A stretch of 34,940 bases of DNA from Planctomycetota bacterium (GTDB lineage: Bacteria > Planctomycetota > Planctomycetia > Pirellulales > Pirellulaceae), in assembly GCA_027619595.1 (NCBI GenBank), contig JAQCHP010000045.1:1-34940 (forward strand). The letters are read 5' to 3'. Within the stretch, counting starts at the first letter, position 1. The number at the start of each line of letters is the position of its first letter. The notes below the pieces were generated by a model. That model was not told where the DNA came from. It worked only from the letters and a program-made list of their open reading frames with translations, and did no database searches. Positions 14,113 to 30,580 of this stretch are shown here, in pieces. Made by a program: the position numbers and the translations under genes.

Positions 14113-14186
14113 GCGCCCGTGGCGCAACTGGATAGCGCATCGGTCTTCGGAACCGAGGGTTACAGGTTCGAATCCTGTCGGGCGTA
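14113..14186 (+). tRNA. tRNA-Arg (anticodon TCG)
   Basis: A 74-base cloverleaf. The acceptor stem GCGCCCG pairs with CGGGCGT (one G-T pair), with A at 14186 as discriminator. The D stem is GCGC/GCGC, the anticodon stem TCGGT/ACCGA with loop CTTCGGA and anticodon TCG at 14147-14149, and the T arm ACAGG-TTCGAAT-CCTGT. The 3' CCA is not encoded. The anticodon reads CGA arginine codons. An integrase gene starts 184 bases downstream in the same direction, a common arrangement at tRNA integration sites. Confidence 0.95.
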
Positions 14187-14370
14187 CTATACGGCGTAAG
14201 GACTTACAACAAATCGCATCAATCCAAAACCGCCTCTGTACGAGAAGTTGTCCGAGAAGTAAGTTGTGAGATGAAAACGGCCCCGGTTGGCGCCAACCAA
14301 CCGGGACCGCGAAGCGAGCCTTTCGGTCGCCTCTGTCAGTTCCTTTGAACTCGATTGGAGGGCTCGTACG

Positions 14371-16379: not shown

Positions 16380-16400
16380 ATTTGGGCCAGTGGCCCAAAT
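16380..16400 (-). terminator. Perfect palindrome at the 3' end of ssrA
   Basis: Ten-base arms ATTTGGGCCA and TGGCCCAAAT around one central base. On the minus strand it begins at the discriminator base of tmRNA and runs downstream, as a terminator or 3' processing hairpin would. There is no T-run after it, so classic intrinsic termination is not shown. Confidence 0.4.
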
Positions 16401-16760
16401 GGAGGCGGCGGGAATCGAACCCGCGTCCCGAGACATTTCCGGGTAAGCTTCTACGTGTGTAGCCGACTCATTGATTTTCGCTCACCCCACCCCTGTCGAC
16501 CGGGTTGTGGGTGAACTAGCCAAGAACGCTGTTTAGCAAAGGGCATACCCGGCAGTGACCCATCGCGATTCGGATTTGGCGACCGACTTTTGGACCTCTC
16601 CGAAAAAGATCCTCAATCGGGGCTACCGTACTTTACTAGGCAGCCAGTGCAAAGTTGCCTTTGGCACATAAATTTTTTGATCAGCTTTTTACGTGGACCG
16701 CCAATCAACCACGACACGCCACTCACACTTCATCTATCCGGTCGAATCCAGTTCGCCCCC
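16400..16760 (-). ncRNA. ssrA: Transfer-messenger RNA (tmRNA)
   Basis: A one-piece 361-base tmRNA that rescues stalled ribosomes. On the minus strand the 5' end GGGGGCGAACTGGATTCGAC (16760 downward) is diagnostic, and GGGGGCG pairs with CGCCTCC at the 3' end, followed by discriminator A at 16400. The T arm is GCGGG-TTCGATT-CCCGC. The tag frame (16665 down to 16636) is GCC AAA GGC AAC TTT GCA CTG GCT GCC TAG, encoding AKGNFALAA, with the usual -LAA protease-recognition end. CCA is not encoded. The RNA is not permuted into two pieces. ssrA 3' ends are frequent integration targets, and the int-xis module lies directly downstream. Confidence 0.97.
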
Positions 16761-22362: not shown

Positions 22363-24261
22363 CTAGTGCTTTTCGCGGATAAATTGGGACGCGTAGCTGC
22401 GTACCTTCTTTCCGTTCAGGACGTGTACCGTCTTAAGTCGTTCAATGGTCGACTCACTAAATTGGGATAGGGGCACATGCACCCATTTCTTGCCAAATCG
22501 GCGGGCCAACGCTCGCCAGCCGGCACCCGGCGGCAGCGACGACAGTAGGGCGATATTCTTGCTGGCGCTGTGCATGCAAGCGGCAGCAAGCAATCTCTCT
22601 TCCAAGGTCTCCGTAAAATCTAGGCGAGGGTCGAACCAAATGTCTGGCACCAGTATTGGCGGGAACAAGAACATAGCACCGCCGTAATTCGCCATACCGA
22701 TGCCGGGCCCGATCATCTCTGCACGGTAGTTGGTCGCGAAAAAGGATAGCGTGGACTCATTTTGATGTTCTGCATACCAGGTCGACCGCCACGGATAATC
22801 GCGCGGATCGGCCGGCGAATCGAACAACATGACGACGGCATTCAGGTGGCCGCGACTCGGCGGCATTACCTTGACGTAGATATCACCTGTGTGCCAATTG
22901 CGCAGCGTGTCACGAATATCAATGCCGTCTTTCACACTGGTGGTGAACTTTTCCGTCCGAGCAAGATCAGTCCCCAAGATCGCTTTGGCACGATCGGCTA
23001 CGTGCGTGCGAAAATTTTCGATCAACTTGTCTTCGGGTGGCCAACTGCATTGTGACTGTGGATTCCAGCTGACTTGCCATCGTTTCTGGTCGTCTCGCGG
23101 CGGTCGCCGCTGGAGTGTACTGCGTCGCCATTCTACTGGTGGACCTGGCAGTCGATTTACAAGACGCGCAACACTACCGTCGGCGAATCTGCCTTTTCGC
23201 ACACCTAGCTCCATCGCTGGAATGTCTAAGGGAATGGCTAGTGGGTATTCGCGTGCTGTTTCAGCGACCGACAGCGCAAACCCGTCACCGACGACCTGCC
23301 GGGCCGCAGTAATGAGGGTATACAGATCGGGACTCATTCGTCGTTCGATCAGACTTAGATTCCGCGCGTAGCGTAAGCAAGACGAAAGCCTCATCGGTGT
23401 CACAGACAAAGCGCGTCGCCGGTATTCTCTCTTATAGTCGGCTCTGGCCGCAATCAACAATTCTTTGACGCCGTCAATTGTCAGATTCTCGTCGCATGAT
23501 AGATCTGCCCGAGCTTGTTCATACAGTGACGTTACGAAGGGGAACTCCCCCAACAGAAAGTACAAGGACGCCAGTGTCGGTTGATGCAATTCCGGAGATT
23601 CGACCGAATCGGCTACGGGCAGAGTGACTTTCGGCAGTGTGGACGAATTCAGCATCTGGTACGCTTCGCGCACGTAGGGCCATTCACACATCGAACAGAC
23701 AAACAGGATGCTCCGATACCTTTGTTGCAGCTCGCTCAACTCGTTAGCCATGTGCAGAACTCGCATCCGAGTTTGTTCCAACTGCGGCCGCCGCATGCTC
23801 GGCAGAATCGCGGCCGCAAAGCGAGCTAATGAAGTTGCCTTGAGCGCATAAGGATCGGGAGAAACAAACTCTTCGGGTCGAAACTGATCGGTTTCCAAAT
23901 CGACGAAACGAATAGGCAAACGTTCGCCCAAAGCGGTGCGGATCGCCGCAATCACACTTTGGCAGGGGTCGATCGGAACAAAGCTGGCTTCGGCCGCAGG
24001 TCCAAACTCGTCCTGGCCGGCGAACTCGCCCACACTTGCCCACCGAGTGCGTTGTACAACAATTGTGGGCGTCGGTAAAAGACCGATGGCTTCGGTGACC
24101 AACGGCTGGAAGGAAGCAGGAAGTGCCACCGCCAAGCAATCAAAGCGGTGGGAGAGCATAAGATGCCGAACTGCCAGCGAGCAATCGCCACTACCGTGAA
24201 CGATCGGCGCCGCGATGATATGTGGCCCGATGCGAAGAATTTCGAGATCCGATTCCGACAT
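22363..24261 (-). CDS. Protein of unknown function, ChaN/DUF5682-like N-terminus, partner of the AAA+ gene
   Basis: A 632-residue, probably cytosolic protein without a signal peptide or membrane segment. The first ~60 residues (IAAPIVHGSGDCSLAVRHLM, then FDCLAVALPASFQPLV) follow the pattern of the ChaN/TIKI-like DUF5682 group, in which a strand ends in a conserved His and the next strand in an acidic residue; here the His is kept and the acidic Glu is not. RSILFVCSMCEWPYVREAY (about 185-205) matches the later 'VCGxxHA' strand, again with the His replaced. The C-terminal part (~420-632: NWHTGDIYVKVMPPSRGHLN, AEMIGPGIGMANYGGAMFLFP) is unknown to me. It starts 16 bases after the AAA+ stop, so the pair is surely co-transcribed. 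DUF5682 genes often accompany MoxR ATPases, which supports the reading. It may have lost hydrolase activity (inference). Confidence 0.55.
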   Translation of the reverse strand: MSESDLEILRIGPHIIAAPIVHGSGDCSLAVRHLMLSHRFDCLAVALPASFQPLVTEAIGLLPTPTIVVQRTRWASVGEFAGQDEFGPAAEASFVPIDPCQSVIAAIRTALGERLPIRFVDLETDQFRPEEFVSPDPYALKATSLARFAAAILPSMRRPQLEQTRMRVLHMANELSELQQRYRSILFVCSMCEWPYVREAYQMLNSSTLPKVTLPVADSVESPELHQPTLASLYFLLGEFPFVTSLYEQARADLSCDENLTIDGVKELLIAARADYKREYRRRALSVTPMRLSSCLRYARNLSLIERRMSPDLYTLITAARQVVGDGFALSVAETAREYPLAIPLDIPAMELGVRKGRFADGSVARLVNRLPGPPVEWRRSTLQRRPPRDDQKRWQVSWNPQSQCSWPPEDKLIENFRTHVADRAKAILGTDLARTEKFTTSVKDGIDIRDTLRNWHTGDIYVKVMPPSRGHLNAVVMLFDSPADPRDYPWRSTWYAEHQNESTLSFFATNYRAEMIGPGIGMANYGGAMFLFPPILVPDIWFDPRLDFTETLEERLLAAACMHSASKNIALLSSLPPGAGWRALARRFGKKWVHVPLSQFSESTIERLKTVHVLNGKKVRSYASQFIREKH

Positions 24262-24277
24262 ACGTTACCATTCCGCT

Positions 24278-25336
24278 CTAGTGGCGACCACTGTCGTCGA
24301 ATTCATCCTCGTCCTCATCCCAGTCCCCTTCGATATCATCGTCGTCGATATCCTCGTCGCCGGCAAAATCGGGATGCAACGGGTCATTGGTGTCGTAGAA
24401 CAAATCGCCTAGTCCCAATGGTACCGATTCACCGCCCAGGGTTCTTTGACGACGTTCGGCCTGCGACTGCAGATCCAGCGCTTCAGGACCTAGACAAGCA
24501 CATAAGGCTTCCTGCCACGTTGCATCATTGTTGACAGGATGATCGGGAAATTGGCGCAAGCGTTTCATGGCGTAGCGCAAAATGTGGATTCCATCACGAG
24601 GTGAGTAATCCAACTTCAGTGAATGTGCTCGCTGTAGAAAATCTACAGTCAACGACAACATATCAAGTTCAGCGAACGGCAAATGGTACTTGAGGATCTC
24701 CATTTCTTCGTGCTTTTGCGGGAAGCCAACCGTCAGAGTCGGCTGTAAGCGACTCATGATGTAGTCGGGAATCTCGTAGGTCGACTCGTCTTGATTCATC
24801 GTCACGGCACAACGGAAATTGGCGTGAGCCGGAATGGAGATCCCGGCGACGATCGATTCGACATAACGTCGATGGTCGAGCAGTGGCGCCAAGCTGGCCC
24901 AAGACTTTTCGTTCATACGATTGCCTTCGTCCAGGAGACAAATACCACCGCGAATCATGGCAGTTACAAGGGGCGACGCGTGATAAGCAATTCGTCCATT
25001 CTCCGCCAAGACGGGGGTCACCAACAAATCTTCGGGCCGCGTATCCGCCGTGCACTGGTAAATATAAATCGACTGCCCCAAAGCGCGCGCAGCGGCCATA
25101 CCCAGCGCCGTCTTGCCGATTCCAGGTGGACCTACCAGCCTTGGAGCGAGTGGCAGATCACTCTTGTCTACCACCAGCCAACAAGCCAACAATTGCTGCA
25201 GTACTTCCTGTTGTCCTATCCATTCACCCGGTACTTCGTGAGGGTTCGCGAGCCGCAGACACACGCCATCGATGATCTTCATATGGCCGGCAGCGGCGGT
25301 CGCGTCCGTATCGGCGTTCTCTGGATTGCCTGTCAT
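24278..25336 (-). CDS. MoxR-type AAA+ ATPase with acidic C-terminal tail
   Basis: A 352-residue AAA+ ATPase of the MoxR/CbbQ/NorQ kind, which remodel or load cofactors into partner proteins. Walker A is GPPGIGKT (69-76), Walker B is [10 protein letters not shown] with Asp136-Glu137, sensor 1 is Asn181 in AVTMNQDE, and an arginine-finger-like Arg196 lies in [22 protein letters not shown] and the helical lid follow. Residues ~320-352 are extremely acidic ([20 protein letters not shown]), unusual for MoxR proteins and perhaps a docking tail. MoxR ATPases normally pair with vWA proteins; no vWA gene is in the window, and the neighbour is instead the ChaN-like protein. Start ATG 25336 has AGGG upstream; ATG at residue 19 ([11 protein letters not shown]) is an alternative. 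Confidence 0.85.
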
Positions 25337-25347
25337 GTGGCCCTGCT

Positions 25348-25512
25348 TTACGTCGCCAATAGAAACGGTCCGAAAGGGCTAACTTTAGCACATTTCCGCT
25401 CTGTCTGGGCAAACCTCCGACCTACGGCAGATGTACTGATCGAACGGATAACGGCGAATGATTCGCCTGAGTGGTCCCCCGGGCACGCGTCGGTTCGCCC
25501 CGGCGCAATCAT
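25348..25512 (-). CDS. Possible 54-residue ORF leading the AAA+ operon
   Basis: The ATG at 25512 is preceded by TTAAGGAGAAGG, the strongest Shine-Dalgarno-like site in this neighbourhood, and the frame ends 11 bases before the AAA+ start. The product ([20 protein letters not shown] at the N-terminus) has no recognisable domain, signal or membrane helix. It could be a short gene or a translated leader that feeds ribosomes to the AAA+ gene. Amino acid make-up is unremarkable, so coding status is open. Confidence 0.3.
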
Positions 25513-25604
25513 CCTTCTCCTTAAATTTAACGCGAGTTGCGGCAAGTTCCTGGTGAATATCCGGCAAAATCGGTCCTAGCCCTGAATTGCAAGCCAGAAT
25601 TGCA

Positions 25605-26570
25605 ATGGAAGGATCCGCCCCCCTTTTTCAATACCATCAGACCGCTGGGTATACGCCGATGACCGCAGAAAGTTTGGCCATGAAGTGGACAGCCGTTCCT
25701 GAATCGCCGGGCGTTCCCGACCCAACAACAACGAATGCAAGCCAAGAAATCGTTACTGCACGTTGTATTGAGGAACGATGTATTGAGGAACGATTCAAAG
25801 AACTCGAACTCTTGACTGCGGAACTTAATCGCTTAGATGGCTACGAAGTGGATGAAAAACTGCCATTTGCCGTCCCGACCGATTTTTGTCTATCGATTGT
25901 CATACCGGTATTCAATGAGTCGACAACGATTCAGCGAATTTTGGCTCGAGTGCGTTCCCTTCCTCTGCGCAAGGAAATCATTGTTGTTGACGACGGCAGC
26001 CAAGATGGAACACGCGATTTACTCAAGACGTTCGCGGATCTTCCCGACTTGCGGGTCCTCTTGCAGCCGAAGAATCAAGGAAAAGGGGCCGCTGTCCGCA
26101 CTGGATTGCAGGCAGCGCGCGGGAATATTGTCGTCGTTCAGGACGCCGACTTGGAATATGACCCGCGCGACATCCTCACCTTGCTCGAGCCAATTCTACT
26201 GGGCGATGTGGATGTGGTTTACGGATCACGATTCTTGAACGATACGTTCTACAAGAATTCCTCACCAGTCCATCGGTGGGGAAATCGCATGCTGACGGTA
26301 CTCTCGAATTGTTGTACCGGACTTCGACTCACCGACATGGAAACCTGCTATAAGGTAATCCGCCGTGATAAATTGGACGGAATCGCACTACGGCAGGACC
26401 GTTTCGGATTCGAACCGGAGATTACGGCGAAACTCGCACGAAAAGGTTGCCGCATTGCCGAACTGCCGGTCCATTATGAAGCGCGGGATTGGTCGGATGG
26501 AAAAAAAATCGGGGTCTGGGACGGCATCAAAGCCGTCTATTGCATCCTGCGCTATGCAATGTGCGACTAG
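25605..26570 (+). CDS. Family 2 glycosyltransferase, dolichol-phosphate mannose synthase-like
   Basis: About 321 residues. The catalytic GT-A domain starts near residue 100 with LSIVIPVFNESTTIQRILARV, the nucleotide-binding EIIVVDDGSQDGTRDLL, the NQGKGAAVRTGLQAARG segment and the metal-binding QDADLEYDPRDI. The acceptor region VYGSRFLN...HRWGNRMLTVLSN and DMETCYKVIRRD resembles bacterial DPM1-like enzymes that transfer a sugar to a polyprenyl phosphate. No C-terminal membrane helices are present, so it is the soluble type. The start is uncertain: ATG 25605 has no ribosome binding site, and ATGs at 25659 and 25680 are alternatives within the poorly conserved leader. A 15-bp tandem duplication in the leader repeats CIEER. 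Acceptor and donor unknown. Confidence 0.85.
   Translation: MEGSAPLFQYHQTAGYTPMTAESLAMKWTAVPESPGVPDPTTTNASQEIVTARCIEERCIEERFKELELLTAELNRLDGYEVDEKLPFAVPTDFCLSIVIPVFNESTTIQRILARVRSLPLRKEIIVVDDGSQDGTRDLLKTFADLPDLRVLLQPKNQGKGAAVRTGLQAARGNIVVVQDADLEYDPRDILTLLEPILLGDVDVVYGSRFLNDTFYKNSSPVHRWGNRMLTVLSNCCTGLRLTDMETCYKVIRRDKLDGIALRQDRFGFEPEITAKLARKGCRIAELPVHYEARDWSDGKKIGVWDGIKAVYCILRYAMCD
25764..25793 (+). repeat. 15-bp perfect tandem duplication inside the glycosyltransferase leader
   Basis: TGTATTGAGGAACGA occurs twice in direct succession and in frame, encoding CIEER twice in a charged, probably helical, leader segment. It does not disturb the reading frame and looks recent. Confidence 0.8.
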
Positions 26571-26688: not shown

Positions 26689-26704
26689 TGGCATGATACT
26701 TGCT
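26689..26704 (+). promoter_or_regulatory. Sigma54 (RpoN) promoter of the flagellar hook operon
   Basis: TGGCATGATACTTGCT matches the -24/-12 consensus TGGCAC-N5-TTGCW: GG at 26690-26691, exactly ten bases, then GC at 26702-26703. Transcription would start near 26715, 26 bases before fliK. Sigma54 control of hook genes is common in other flagellated bacteria. Confidence 0.75.
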
Positions 26705-26740
26705 TGCTTACGACAGCAATCAAGTCCCTGGGAGCAAGTA

Positions 26741-28300
26741 ATGAGCCTGATCGCATTCACCCCTCCATCCATGGGGCCGTCATCCTACGACGCGACCGAG
26801 GCGTCTGGTCGTCAATCCGACCGTGGTGCCGACGGCCCGTTTGGTGCAACACTCGATCAATTCGACCATCAAACTGCTCGATACAACGCTTCCGAGGAAA
26901 CGCCAGCCCGCGAATCGACTCCACAACGCCCCGACAATGATGATCGCTTCTTGAAGAGGATCAACCACGACCGAAATCGGGAAATCTCCGACTCCTCCTC
27001 GTCCGAAAAAACGCGTGAGGCGGAGGAGGTGGACGGCGAATTGATAACGCCGGAGGGACAACAATCCAGCACCACCGAGGTCGAATCGCTTCTCGAACCG
27101 ATGAGCGGACCGCTCGTCGAACCGCTCATCGAATCGCGAAAGCAGGATCTGGAAGGCGACCCAACGTATGTATCTGTTGTTTCTGGATCCCTAGATCCTC
27201 TCACGCAACTGGCCACCTTATCACCGGTTGCAACGTCAAATGGGAATTACCCAACTCCGTCTACGCAGTCTGAAATTACCCCATCGGCACTCAGCGATGA
27301 CAAACGACTGTTGGCAGAGTCGCCCTTGCATTCAAAACCACTCTCCGCGCCAGGTACGAACGACCCCCACGTAGGGCCACCCCAAAAACTCGACGGTCCA
27401 ATCGACCGTATTGCGGGCCCTTCACCGAATGCCACCGGAAATCCACCGGCAAGCGGTACACCGTCGTCTACAAACAGTCCAACTCGGCAACCCGCAAATG
27501 ATTTGGAGCTTGTCGCTGAACCGGCCACACCAACGACTACGATCGAAGACACACCCAAGTCAGCGGCCCCCAGCAATAAACTTGCCCCTACGACCTTCTC
27601 CGCGATCACTGAGTTGTCACAACCCGATTCAGACGCATCCACCGCCCAAGATACGAAAACTTTGTCTACTTCAGCCGAGTCCGTGGAAGCAGGAATTGCT
27701 GATCCGGTGACCGGTGTTCCACTTCCCGCCGCAAGAACGGGTGTGCCAAGTGGCGGATCCGGGGATCAAGATCACGATCAATCCTCGGGAATGGGGGACA
27801 GCGATTCGCACGTCTCTACCGTCACAACATTCGCGCACAGTGCACAGTCCAAATCGCAAATTGATCCCACAACATTGCCACCGTCCCGTGCAACGCACCA
27901 AATTACCGACCTGACGAGAACGGCAATCGTGCTGCGTGATCGCGGTCAAGGGCCGCGCTTGGAGGCGACCCTTTCACCGCCCGACCTCGGCCGAATTCGT
28001 ATCGAACTGCAAGGGAATGGCGACTCACTAACTGTCCGCATCCAAGTCGCGGAATCCCAGACATTGCAAATGCTTCAGAACAGTCTGTCCGATTTGCGAC
28101 AACAGCTACAGTCGTTAGGCCTGGACTCCGGTTCAATCGCAATTACGGGTTGGACCGAACATACGACCGCTGGCCAACCAGATTCTCGCGACAACACCGC
28201 AGATCGCTTCACTCGAGAAGAATCACATCCGATGTTCAAATCGAGATCGATGTCGATTCCGCTACGGAAGTCTACACAGATAGTAGACGTAATTTTGTAA
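26741..28300 (+). CDS. fliK: Flagellar hook-length control protein
   Basis: A 519-residue FliK-type protein that measures hook length and switches export specificity. Most of the chain (~1-390) is low-complexity, rich in Ser, Thr, Pro, Asp and Glu, as usual for FliK rulers. The C-terminal hook domain spans about 395-475 (LRDRGQGPRLEATLSPPDLGRIRIELQ, then LTVRIQVAESQTLQMLQNSLSDLRQQLQSLGLDSGSIAIT, given as two parts). The conserved 'L.P..LG.I.I.L' motif is clear. ATG 26741 follows GGGAG at 26730-26734. It is the first gene after the sigma54 promoter and is followed by flgD and flgE. Name given from domain and context, since the N-terminal part is not alignable. Confidence 0.85.
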   Translation: MSLIAFTPPSMGPSSYDATEASGRQSDRGADGPFGATLDQFDHQTARYNASEETPARESTPQRPDNDDRFLKRINHDRNREISDSSSSEKTREAEEVDGELITPEGQQSSTTEVESLLEPMSGPLVEPLIESRKQDLEGDPTYVSVVSGSLDPLTQLATLSPVATSNGNYPTPSTQSEITPSALSDDKRLLAESPLHSKPLSAPGTNDPHVGPPQKLDGPIDRIAGPSPNATGNPPASGTPSSTNSPTRQPANDLELVAEPATPTTTIEDTPKSAAPSNKLAPTTFSAITELSQPDSDASTAQDTKTLSTSAESVEAGIADPVTGVPLPAARTGVPSGGSGDQDHDQSSGMGDSDSHVSTVTTFAHSAQSKSQIDPTTLPPSRATHQITDLTRTAIVLRDRGQGPRLEATLSPPDLGRIRIELQGNGDSLTVRIQVAESQTLQMLQNSLSDLRQQLQSLGLDSGSIAITGWTEHTTAGQPDSRDNTADRFTREESHPMFKSRSMSIPLRKSTQIVDVIL

Positions 28301-28392
28301 TGAATCCGATTGGGCGAAACCGACCGATGTTTGTTCAGATAAAGATGCTTACCCCGCGTTTTGCCGTGTTTCACATATAAGGAGATGGAACT

Positions 28393-28893
28393 ATGGATGG
28401 AATATCTTCTCTTACAACAGGCGGTGAATTGCGGAACGATTTCTTACTGCTCCTCACGGAACAAATCCGAAATCAGGACCCACTTTCTCCGGCAGACTCG
28501 AATGAATTTATTGGCCAGTTGTCACAATTCACCCAGCTTGAGCGAATGGAATCACTCAACGGAAAAATGGACAAATTGGTAGACCTGTCACAGAAGCAGC
28601 TGGACCAAGGCAAGCCGACCGACAAAGCCACGCCAGCCGACCTCACACAATCTGCGTTATTGCTCGGAAAACAACTTGACTACCTCTACCAGCCGACGTC
28701 AGCGGATCCGAAAGCACCGCCCCTAGCAAGTCTATCCAAGACAGGGACAGTAGAATCGGTGACACTCAAGAACAATAGTGTCTACATGATCATGAACAAC
28801 GGTGACCAGATACAGTTAAAAGATGTTAAATCGATTACAACGCCATCACCCACCGGAACGCTGTCAGAAACTACGCCGTTACTTGCGGCTTAA
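28393..28893 (+). CDS. flgD: Flagellar hook capping / scaffold protein
   Basis: A 166-residue FlgD, the cap on which hook subunits polymerise. The conserved N-terminal region is evident: LRNDFLLLLTEQIRNQDPLSP, then EFIGQLSQFTQLERMESLNGKM. The C-terminal part (LGKQLDYLYQ, TGTVESVTLKNNSVYMIMNNGDQIQL) matches the short form that lacks the FlgD Ig-like domains of the E. coli protein. ATG 28393 has AAGGAG eight bases upstream. It follows fliK by 92 bases and precedes flgE by 31. Confidence 0.9.
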   Translation: MDGISSLTTGGELRNDFLLLLTEQIRNQDPLSPADSNEFIGQLSQFTQLERMESLNGKMDKLVDLSQKQLDQGKPTDKATPADLTQSALLLGKQLDYLYQPTSADPKAPPLASLSKTGTVESVTLKNNSVYMIMNNGDQIQLKDVKSITTPSPTGTLSETTPLLAA

Positions 28894-28924
28894 AGTTGCC
28901 ATCTGGCATCCTAGGGAGAATCCA

Positions 28925-30580
28925 ATGCCCAATGCACTGTATACCGGAGTCACCGGACTCGTCGCACACCAACGATTACTTGATGTAACGGCTAACAACA
29001 TCGCTAACGTCAACACGGTTTCTTATAAATCGGAACGGATGCTATTCGATGATTTGATTTATGAGACGCTCCGTCCCGCGACAAGTGCCAGTAGCGATGA
29101 CATTGGTGGTGTTAATCCCAACCAAGTGGGAAGTGGCGTCAAGATGGGACAGATCGATCGTCGTTTTACTGGCGGGCCGTTGGAACTTACCGGCGAACAG
29201 TTCGATTTTGCGGTTCAGGGCGAGGGATTTTTTGTCGCATCCGACGGGAATAGACAACTTTACACACGAGCCGGTGCATTCACGCTGGACGCGAACGGCT
29301 ATCTCATCGATGCCACAACGGGCTACTATGTCCAACGATTTGGGGAATTTGGCGAACCCGACGGCGTCAGTCCTGCATTTCAGGTCGAGGGGGACAACCG
29401 GATACGCATACCGCTAGGTGCGGCAGTCCCCGGTGCTCAAACTACCGAGATTCTACTGGAGGGGAACCTGAGTTCCTCACTAAATCCCGACACCGCGGAA
29501 GAACTCATGACCAGAAATTCCTTCCGCGATGCTGCGGGAAATCCTGCCGTAGCGGGAACGCTGCTGAACAACTTGCAAACGAACTCCATCGACTACGTCA
29601 CGGGCGATATCGTTCGTATCACTCTTAAGAATCCCGATGGCAGTTCGCCGCCAACTCCTGTGGAGGTGAATGTTGACGGAACGACTACGTTGGGCGACTT
29701 GCTTACCGCAATCAACGCCAACCTGACCGGCGCTACGGCAACGATCGACAATGGGAAAATCAAGATTACGTCGGCCACGGTTGGCCCCGCGACTTTGGCT
29801 CTTGGATTTAACGACATCGTGGCATCTGGGTCCTCCAAGACCGATTGGGCACTCCATACGGGTACCATCACGAAGAACGGTCAGCTAGCGGACACGATCG
29901 TGAAGACGTTCGATGTCTACGACGTACAAGGAAACGCACGCCGTATTACGCTAACTCTAACGAAAGAAACGACGAACGAATGGTCCGGGGAAGTGTCGAT
30001 ACAGCCAGAGGACGGAGCCGTCCTAGACGGAACCATTGCGCAAATTCGATTTGACAGTAGTGGTAAATTTCAGAGTTTCGGCGACAACTCGATTTCACTC
30101 GTTTTTGCCGGTATGGACGCGCCGCAAGCGATCGATCTCTCTTTCACAGATGCGAGTGGCATCGGGCTCACCCATCTCGGATCGGACACATCGTTAGTTC
30201 CAGCACAGGATGGTTTTGGCCCCGGTGCGCTAACGAGCGTCCTCGTGAATCCCGACGGCACATTGACGGGCGTTGGTTCCAACGGCACGGCATTGAAGTT
30301 GGCGCAGTTGGCGTTGGCTGGATTTACGAACAGTCGCGGGCTCAAGGCGATTGGCGACAACATGTATGAAGCGACTCTCAACAGTGGTGCGGCCCAAATA
30401 GGGGCAGCCGCCAGCAGCGGTCGGGGTGCCGTCCTCAATAGCCAACTGGAAGGTTCCAACGTTGATCTCGCGCTAGAATTTACGCGGCTGGTAGTAGCAC
30501 AGCGTGGATTCTCGGCCAACGCGAGAACCATTACCATCGCCGACCAGATGCTCGAAGAGCTGACCAACGTGATCCGATAG
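28925..30580 (+). CDS. flgE: Flagellar hook protein
   Basis: A 551-residue hook subunit. The N-terminal rod-type motif reads MPNALYTGVTGLVAHQRLLD followed by VTANNIANVNTVSYKSERM. The FDFAVQGEGFFVASDGNRQLYTRAGAF segment is typical of FlgE/FlgF/FlgG. A middle region (~230-310) includes a stretch like the hook-IN motif (TTLGDLLTAINANLTGATATI). The C-terminal basal-body motif is LEGSNVDLALEFTRLVVAQR followed by GFSANARTITIADQMLEEL. ATG 28925 follows AGGGAGA; the frame is open upstream inside flgD but without homology. Size is larger than the E. coli hook protein (about 400 residues) because of the extra middle domains. Last gene visible in the sigma54 operon. Confidence 0.92.
   Translation: MPNALYTGVTGLVAHQRLLDVTANNIANVNTVSYKSERMLFDDLIYETLRPATSASSDDIGGVNPNQVGSGVKMGQIDRRFTGGPLELTGEQFDFAVQGEGFFVASDGNRQLYTRAGAFTLDANGYLIDATTGYYVQRFGEFGEPDGVSPAFQVEGDNRIRIPLGAAVPGAQTTEILLEGNLSSSLNPDTAEELMTRNSFRDAAGNPAVAGTLLNNLQTNSIDYVTGDIVRITLKNPDGSSPPTPVEVNVDGTTTLGDLLTAINANLTGATATIDNGKIKITSATVGPATLALGFNDIVASGSSKTDWALHTGTITKNGQLADTIVKTFDVYDVQGNARRITLTLTKETTNEWSGEVSIQPEDGAVLDGTIAQIRFDSSGKFQSFGDNSISLVFAGMDAPQAIDLSFTDASGIGLTHLGSDTSLVPAQDGFGPGALTSVLVNPDGTLTGVGSNGTALKLAQLALAGFTNSRGLKAIGDNMYEATLNSGAAQIGAAASSGRGAVLNSQLEGSNVDLALEFTRLVVAQRGFSANARTITIADQMLEELTNVIR

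Follow-up and report, generated by a model that had tools for sequence, protein, structure and literature searches.

ATPases of the MoxR group are ring-shaped, protein-remodelling AAA+ enzymes that work with an adaptor bearing a von Willebrand factor A (vWA) domain, and NorQ-NorD, CbbQ-CbbO and RavA-ViaA are MoxR-vWA pairs of this kind. In Escherichia coli, the genes yehL, yehM, yehP and yehQ encode, respectively, an AAA_5 ATPase, a DUF5682 protein, a vWA protein and a SWIM protein. DUF5682 is not mentioned by name in the literature searched, and in the text which that search covered at least two of YehL, YehM and YehP are named together in only two papers, one announcing a genome and the other presenting a strain resource. 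Here we describe two neighbouring genes in the window, by which we mean the whole 34,940-nucleotide stretch analysed from a Planctomycetota bacterium of the Pirellulaceae (assembly GCA_027619595.1, contig JAQCHP010000045.1, positions 1 to 34,940): one for an AAA+ ATPase of the AAA_5 (MoxR/CbbQ/NorQ) group (24278-25336, minus strand, 352 residues), and one for a partner protein that is a distant DUF5682 homologue (22363-24261, minus strand, 632 residues). The pair, not previously studied, probably makes up one machine, with YehLMPQ and the MoxR-vWA systems as its closest known counterparts. Comparative sequence analysis leads us to propose, with a probability of about 0.5, that it is an AAA+ remodelling machine in which a pseudo-hydrolase subunit takes the place of the vWA adaptor.

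Like yehLMPQ, the window has an AAA_5 ATPase gene directly upstream of a gene for a DUF5682-type protein, whose N-terminal part is homologous to YehM; unlike yehLMPQ, it has no adjoining vWA or SWIM gene, and pairwise similarity between its ATPase and YehL is confined to the Walker A stretch (E 0.29). That stretch is atypical in YehL (L192:97-1185), reading GEPGTAKS against GPPGIGKT in the window ATPase. With the MoxR-vWA pairs, the window ATPase shares its group and motifs, but by Pfam no vWA gene adjoins the window pair, and the source genome (96.4 % complete) contains no match to a CoxE-type vWA protein.

Two genes found together

The ATPase and the partner are real genes, as their open frames and their strong conservation among relatives show, and the two reading frames that a preliminary description of this DNA, made from its letters alone, had set 16 bases apart were found just so, both on the minus strand with the ATPase upstream and an intergenic gap of 16 nt. 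Their distribution was followed in 98 close relatives, the source genome included, and in a phylum set of 294 genomes (partner E <= 1e-3, ATPase E <= 1e-30); from the named loci, families f1 and f21 are taken to be Pirellulaceae and Planctomycetaceae, and the phylum to be Planctomycetota. Both genes occur in 45 genomes of the phylum set, the partner alone in none, the ATPase alone in two and neither in 247 (Fisher p 4e-51 for co-occurrence, uncorrected for shared ancestry). Among the 98 relatives, the genomes with a strong partner match are the same 45 as those with a strong ATPase match, and two further partner matches there (G040 and G059), one of them accompanied by an ATPase, are remote paralogues. 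Adjacency is seen in 20 of the 45 close relatives, with 18-269 nt between the matches; among 80 named loci, these being the best 80 of 454 relatives, the count is 40 (39 of 75 when loci with 1200 nt or less upstream are set aside), and 14 of the 18 distant loci hold the ATPase too, once with another open reading frame (ORF) between. The preliminary description had proposed a gene-neighbourhood survey and held rare adjacency against a unit; the survey found adjacency in about half of the genomes (20 of 45) and co-occurrence in 45 of 45 in both sets, and by these comparisons the ATPase-partner pair is a real unit.

A plasmid of Neochlamydia sp. S13 also carries the pair (L193:6102-8815), with a 5-nt gap, and is the only plasmid match among 72,556 records. 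The Neochlamydia ATPase shares 55 % identity with the window ATPase; between the two partners, identity is 27 % across 97 % of the length. A restriction of the pair to Planctomycetota was considered and rejected, since this Chlamydiota copy exists.

Fold and pocket of the partner

The partner has no Pfam row (0 families at E 1), no NCBIfam row and no phmmer match among PDB sequences; its best hits in PADLOC and PHROGs (E 0.027 and 0.04) are at chance level, and profile searches of the PDB reached at best E 0.014 with the C-terminal half and 0.058 with the whole protein. It does not reach the curated cut-off of DUF5682 (PF18934), a family without a match in its own genome. A profile-profile comparison of 41 of the 156 partner ORFs with 20 DUF5682 proteins (YehM together with planctomycete members, 19 of the 23 ORFs matching DUF5682) aligned residues 13-327 at 97.7 % (E 1.9e-12, as a single comparison). 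The N-terminal halves alone gave 98.0 % (E 1.4e-13), the sequences of the core clade defined below gave 96.2 % by themselves (E 2.6e-9), and controls on the whole alignments, one reversed and six column-shuffled, gave 0.1-0.2 %. The first ~330 residues of the partner are, on these profiles, homologous to DUF5682. Calling the protein divergent and ChaN/DUF5682-like was therefore right for residues ~13-330, though four family libraries miss it. PF18934 is matched in 24 genomes, and because eight of these (G121, G168, G186, G229, G233, G276, G286 and G289) also carry the partner, the latter is a separate lineage and not a replaced copy of DUF5682.

The partner divides into three parts, and its AlphaFold2 model has a mean pLDDT of 84.1. 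Residues 1-212 (23626-24261, minus strand) would form an alpha/beta domain with the parallel-sheet fold of the TIKI/TraB/ChaN/erythromycin esterase superfamily. When residues 1-211 were compared by VIA-align, three rows of a Tetrahymena complex IV subunit came first (Z 9.4-10.6), then ChaN (2g5g; Z 8.7, 145 residues, 4.0 A), with EreC (Z 7.1), HopBA1 (6.7) and 6a7h (6.1), which we take from its residue numbers to be RRSP, at ranks 5, 6 and 9; the first unrelated row, at Z 6.4, ties with HopBA1 and 6a7h. Among viral proteins, the best match belongs to the TraB family (probability 0.98, E 8.5e-3). Foldseek alone found no PDB match under E 0.001, so the ChaN-like assignment draws on sequence profiles and VIA-align jointly; structure prediction had been set beforehand as the test, a model without a ChaN-like fold counting against the idea, and the model obtained matches ChaN. 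The second part, residues 213-341 (23239-23625, minus strand), is a predicted helical domain with weak AAA-lid or histone-fold-like matches (Z ~5), and the DUF5682 alignment reaches into it as far as about residue 327.

The preliminary description, correct about the ChaN-like N-terminal part, had passed over a better-conserved C-terminal domain. This third part, residues 342-632 (22366-23238, minus strand), has no DUF5682 counterpart: hhalign of the two C-terminal halves gives 0.8 %, meaning that they are not shared, and across 64 sequences 56 of 289 columns are invariant in residues 342-630 versus 32 of 334 in residues 8-341. No structure or PDB-profile match to this region is convincing, those of its model (pLDDT 78.9) being weak throughout. 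Many of the weak rows read as RNase-H-like (PepQ N-terminal domain Z 5.2, HIV integrase 3.5, RuvX 3.4), but they fall below the noise level of the tool, and an RNase-H-like fold is a lead only.

Members of the TIKI superfamily have a 2His/2Glu set, all four residues of which are essential for Ras cleavage by RRSP in vitro and which is absent in PMT (the relevant part of PMC6254334). Mapped onto the DUF5682 columns, this set would lack its first Glu in DUF5682; unlike the superfamily, the window partner does not keep the set and retains His22 only. Residues were counted in 133 partner rows (112 core, 18 distant, and L188, L189 and L043), obtained from the 134 of 156 ORFs left after removal of near-identical sequences by dropping the window copies. 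The columns of window residues 46, 168, 190 and 193 correspond in DUF5682 to the Glu of IEGP, the Glu of REAxM, and the Gly and His of GxxH, and are occupied by Glu, Glu, Gly and His in 20, 19, 20 and 20 of the 20 DUF5682 proteins, in 18, 17, 18 and 17 of the 18 distant planctomycete partners, and in 1, 0, 3 and 16 of the 112 core sequences, the window partner itself having Ala46, Val168, Ser190 and Glu193. His22, Glu46, Glu168 and His193 stand together in 16 of the 18 distant members; the last three occur together in no core member, both glutamates being lost in 111 of 112. The Neochlamydia partner keeps all the residues lost in the core. What the core retains is conserved almost without exception (Gln101 in 112 of 112, Asp121 and Arg167 in 111 each, His22 and Asp98 in 110 each), and because positions 98, 101, 121 and 167 are 98-100 % conserved, the pattern points to a remodelled pocket and not to decay. 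The cut-off, the catalytic-type residues and the unrelated C-terminal half all place the window partner outside DUF5682, but its N-terminal half is homologous to that family.

The conserved positions could be read differently: the partner may still be an enzyme or a cofactor protein whose site has been rebuilt (His22, Asp98/Gln101, Asp121, Arg167, Asp/Glu193), with the ATPase activating this protein or inserting its cofactor. We consider this unlikely. For it we count the NorQ- and CbbQ-type ATPases, which serve metal insertion and rubisco activation according to portions of PMC9976466, PMC13036017 and PMC4660213. The positions of the rebuilt site are near-invariant in the core, position 193 less so, and ChaN, the best-labelled fold match, is titled haem-binding. 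The double loss of Glu46 and Glu168 stands against it, and we know of no active site composed of the rebuilt-set residues.

The earlier remark that one His of the ChaN-like pattern is kept and others seem to be missing was right and can now be placed on a tree. In a partner tree of 80 rows (49 core, 21 others and 10 of the 20 DUF5682 proteins; first 345 residues, or 420 for DUF5682), the core sequences plus L188 form one clade (100/100), which takes in named Pirellulaceae and Planctomycetaceae and leaves the distant partners and DUF5682 outside; the tree carries warnings for long branches at L043, L189 and L178 and for long branches that meet. As the core partners are one clade, a single loss suffices for the sampled sequences, and the two DUF5682-type glutamates were probably lost once in the core clade; L128, the sole core sequence with Glu46, is absent from the tree. 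In an ATPase tree of 45 rows, the core is again one clade (98/94), with L170 as its sister, and the distant members do not come together as a single clade. Two further features of the family may be recorded: the loop at residues 72-89 of the ChaN-like domain (window 23995-24048) is shorter and less acidic than in many core orthologues, which carry there an acidic insert of greater length (a median of 23 residues, with 35 % Asp/Glu), and a bridging member (L189:3000-4937) shows a weak DUF5682 match (E 0.008), retains all the catalytic-type residues and is followed by an SHD1-domain gene.

The ATPase and the neighbourhood of the pair

Pfam assigns the ATPase to AAA_5 (E 3.7e-21) and more weakly to AAA_3 (2.4e-7), and its nearest PDB sequences are midasin, CbbQ and NorQ, so that the label MoxR-type, given to it at the outset, is fair in a wide sense. 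Its nucleotide-handling motifs are intact and conserved in an alignment of ~70 unique sequences; we take these to be Walker A, Walker B (LDEGNR), sensor 1 (TMN) and the Arg finger (SRLQP). The true start may lie near Met19, where many homologues begin. A helix-2 insert is a named feature of MoxR-group AAA+ proteins in the pertinent part of PMC7159879. The acidic C-terminal tail noticed earlier is real (residues 322-352, 24281-24373, minus strand), with 18 Asp/Glu among its 31 residues; in 56 core orthologues, where the tail was delimited after a DxLHP motif (41 of 56) or otherwise as the last 25 residues, its median acidic share is 65 % and its median number of Lys/Arg is zero. Docking of this tail on the partner would be permitted by a basic stretch in the window partner (residues 342-471, pI 10.2; whole partner pI 8.5). 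The evidence for such charge-based docking is mixed, the median pI of 64 core partners being 5.7 and the Neochlamydia ATPase having no acidic tail.

The presumed co-transcription of the two genes gains from their recurring adjacency (20/45), and not from a promoter consensus scan, which returned no promoter-like site where 2.1 are expected by chance; terminator-like sites numbered four, with 3.6 expected. A possible 54-residue leader upstream fared worse: the candidate ORF (25348-25512, minus strand, ATG start, Shine-Dalgarno-like AAGGAG) is unsupported, its best match in the loci examined having an E of at least 0.2, the window's own copies aside. Unrelated genes do bound the cluster, as had been said, namely by Pfam a GSDH/HEAT/cytochrome-c protein on one side and a GT2 glycosyltransferase on the other (25587-26570, divergent from the ATPase). 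Upstream GT2 genes of opposite orientation turn up by tblastn in 7 of the 80 loci and by clustering in 5, and a functional link to the pair was rejected in favour of synteny; the divergent GT2-ATPase arrangement recurs in L025 (GT2 by Pfam), where the partner is on a different contig. Farther out, the window holds flagellar genes by Pfam at 26693-30580 (a FliK-type hook-length control protein, FlgD and an FlgE-type hook protein), a tmRNA (tag AKGNFALAA) at 16397-16760 and a tRNA-Arg at 14113-14187.

A third recurrent gene raises the possibility, doubtful in our estimate, that the module has three parts, the regular third one being a TerB-like protein. In 13 of the 80 loci the partner gene is directly followed by a small TerB-like gene of the same orientation (TerB by Pfam in the one examined), L065:11981-12325 being an example, and within f1 such a gene is present in 36 of the 44 genomes that have a strong partner match versus 5 of the 16 that do not (p 4e-4). 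The source genome has one too, on a different contig (G000:C52:26905-27222). Eight of the 44 f1 partner genomes and G064 yield no TerB-like match, and the genes annotated around the Neochlamydia pair include none; both points count against a regular third component.

The pair could also be an anti-phage or inter-bacterial conflict module akin to the MoxR-vWA ternary systems (treated in part of PMC7159879), in which FGS effectors occur. The likeness is a distant copy beside its own ATPase and a DUF4062/FGE-sulfatase protein (L043:1-6264, all on one strand; the partner ORF, cut by the contig end, has all the catalytic-type residues), which possibly is a conflict-type sister module; the copy on the Neochlamydia plasmid also speaks for this reading. 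As an account of the window pair we find it improbable: unlike those systems it has no adjoining vWA, third core protein or effector gene, no PADLOC family was matched at E 0.01 and no match appeared in the phage collection, and f21 has one partner match each in 15 of its 16 genomes.

A proposed machine and its significance

In the remodelling machine that we favour, a ring of the ATPase would use ATP to reshape a bound protein or complex, as its relatives do. The partner would be its dedicated co-factor, built of a ChaN/TIKI-fold domain and a helical domain, as in DUF5682, followed by the conserved C-terminal domain. The former TIKI-fold site, kept as a remodelled pocket, would bind a client or a regulatory ligand and not cleave it; the partner would present the client to the ATPase, the adaptor role of vWA proteins in MoxR-vWA systems, and the C-terminal domain might carry the output. 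Single copies in most core-family genomes make a role in housekeeping or stress seem likelier than one in defence.

Several observations weigh against this proposal. In 25 of 45 genomes, some of them one-contig assemblies, the two genes lie apart; G248, a one-contig genome, and G103, which is 66 % complete, have the ATPase but yield no partner match even at E 10; and presence is patchy, strong matches occurring in 44 of the 60 f1 genomes and in 1 of the order's other 38. Some chemistry at the pocket could remain, since the history of position 193 is mixed: the core has His there in 16 of 112 sequences and Asp/Glu in 88, and because the five His193 sequences in the tree nest inside the core as one Rhodopirellula-type group, this His was regained, or lost more than once. 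The absence of the usual vWA protein, noted at the start, holds for the immediate neighbours and not for the genome, which has other vWA proteins (18 VWA_2 matches), and a vWA co-factor encoded elsewhere is possible. In 5 of the 80 loci there is also a VIT-vWA-type gene of opposite orientation some kilobases off, which weakens a vWA-free reading; the only copy put to Pfam (L079:15680-18154) is a VIT-vWA protein with VIT and VWA domains.

More tentatively still, the pair may represent a class of vWA-free AAA+ machines, in which a ChaN/TIKI hydrolase lost its glutamates in one event, became an obligate adaptor and spread through Pirellulaceae and Planctomycetaceae as a housekeeping device, its unknown second domain being the output. 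If so, the catalytically complete sister modules in other planctomycetes and on the Neochlamydia plasmid would represent the ancestral enzymatic state. An uncharacterised family gains a likely fold, a constant companion and a traceable loss of catalytic residues, and its distant and core members offer natural before-and-after versions for comparison. Should the proposal hold, a pseudo-hydrolase can stand in for the vWA protein that accompanies MoxR-group ATPases, and the pair would provide a handle on the related YehLMPQ system.

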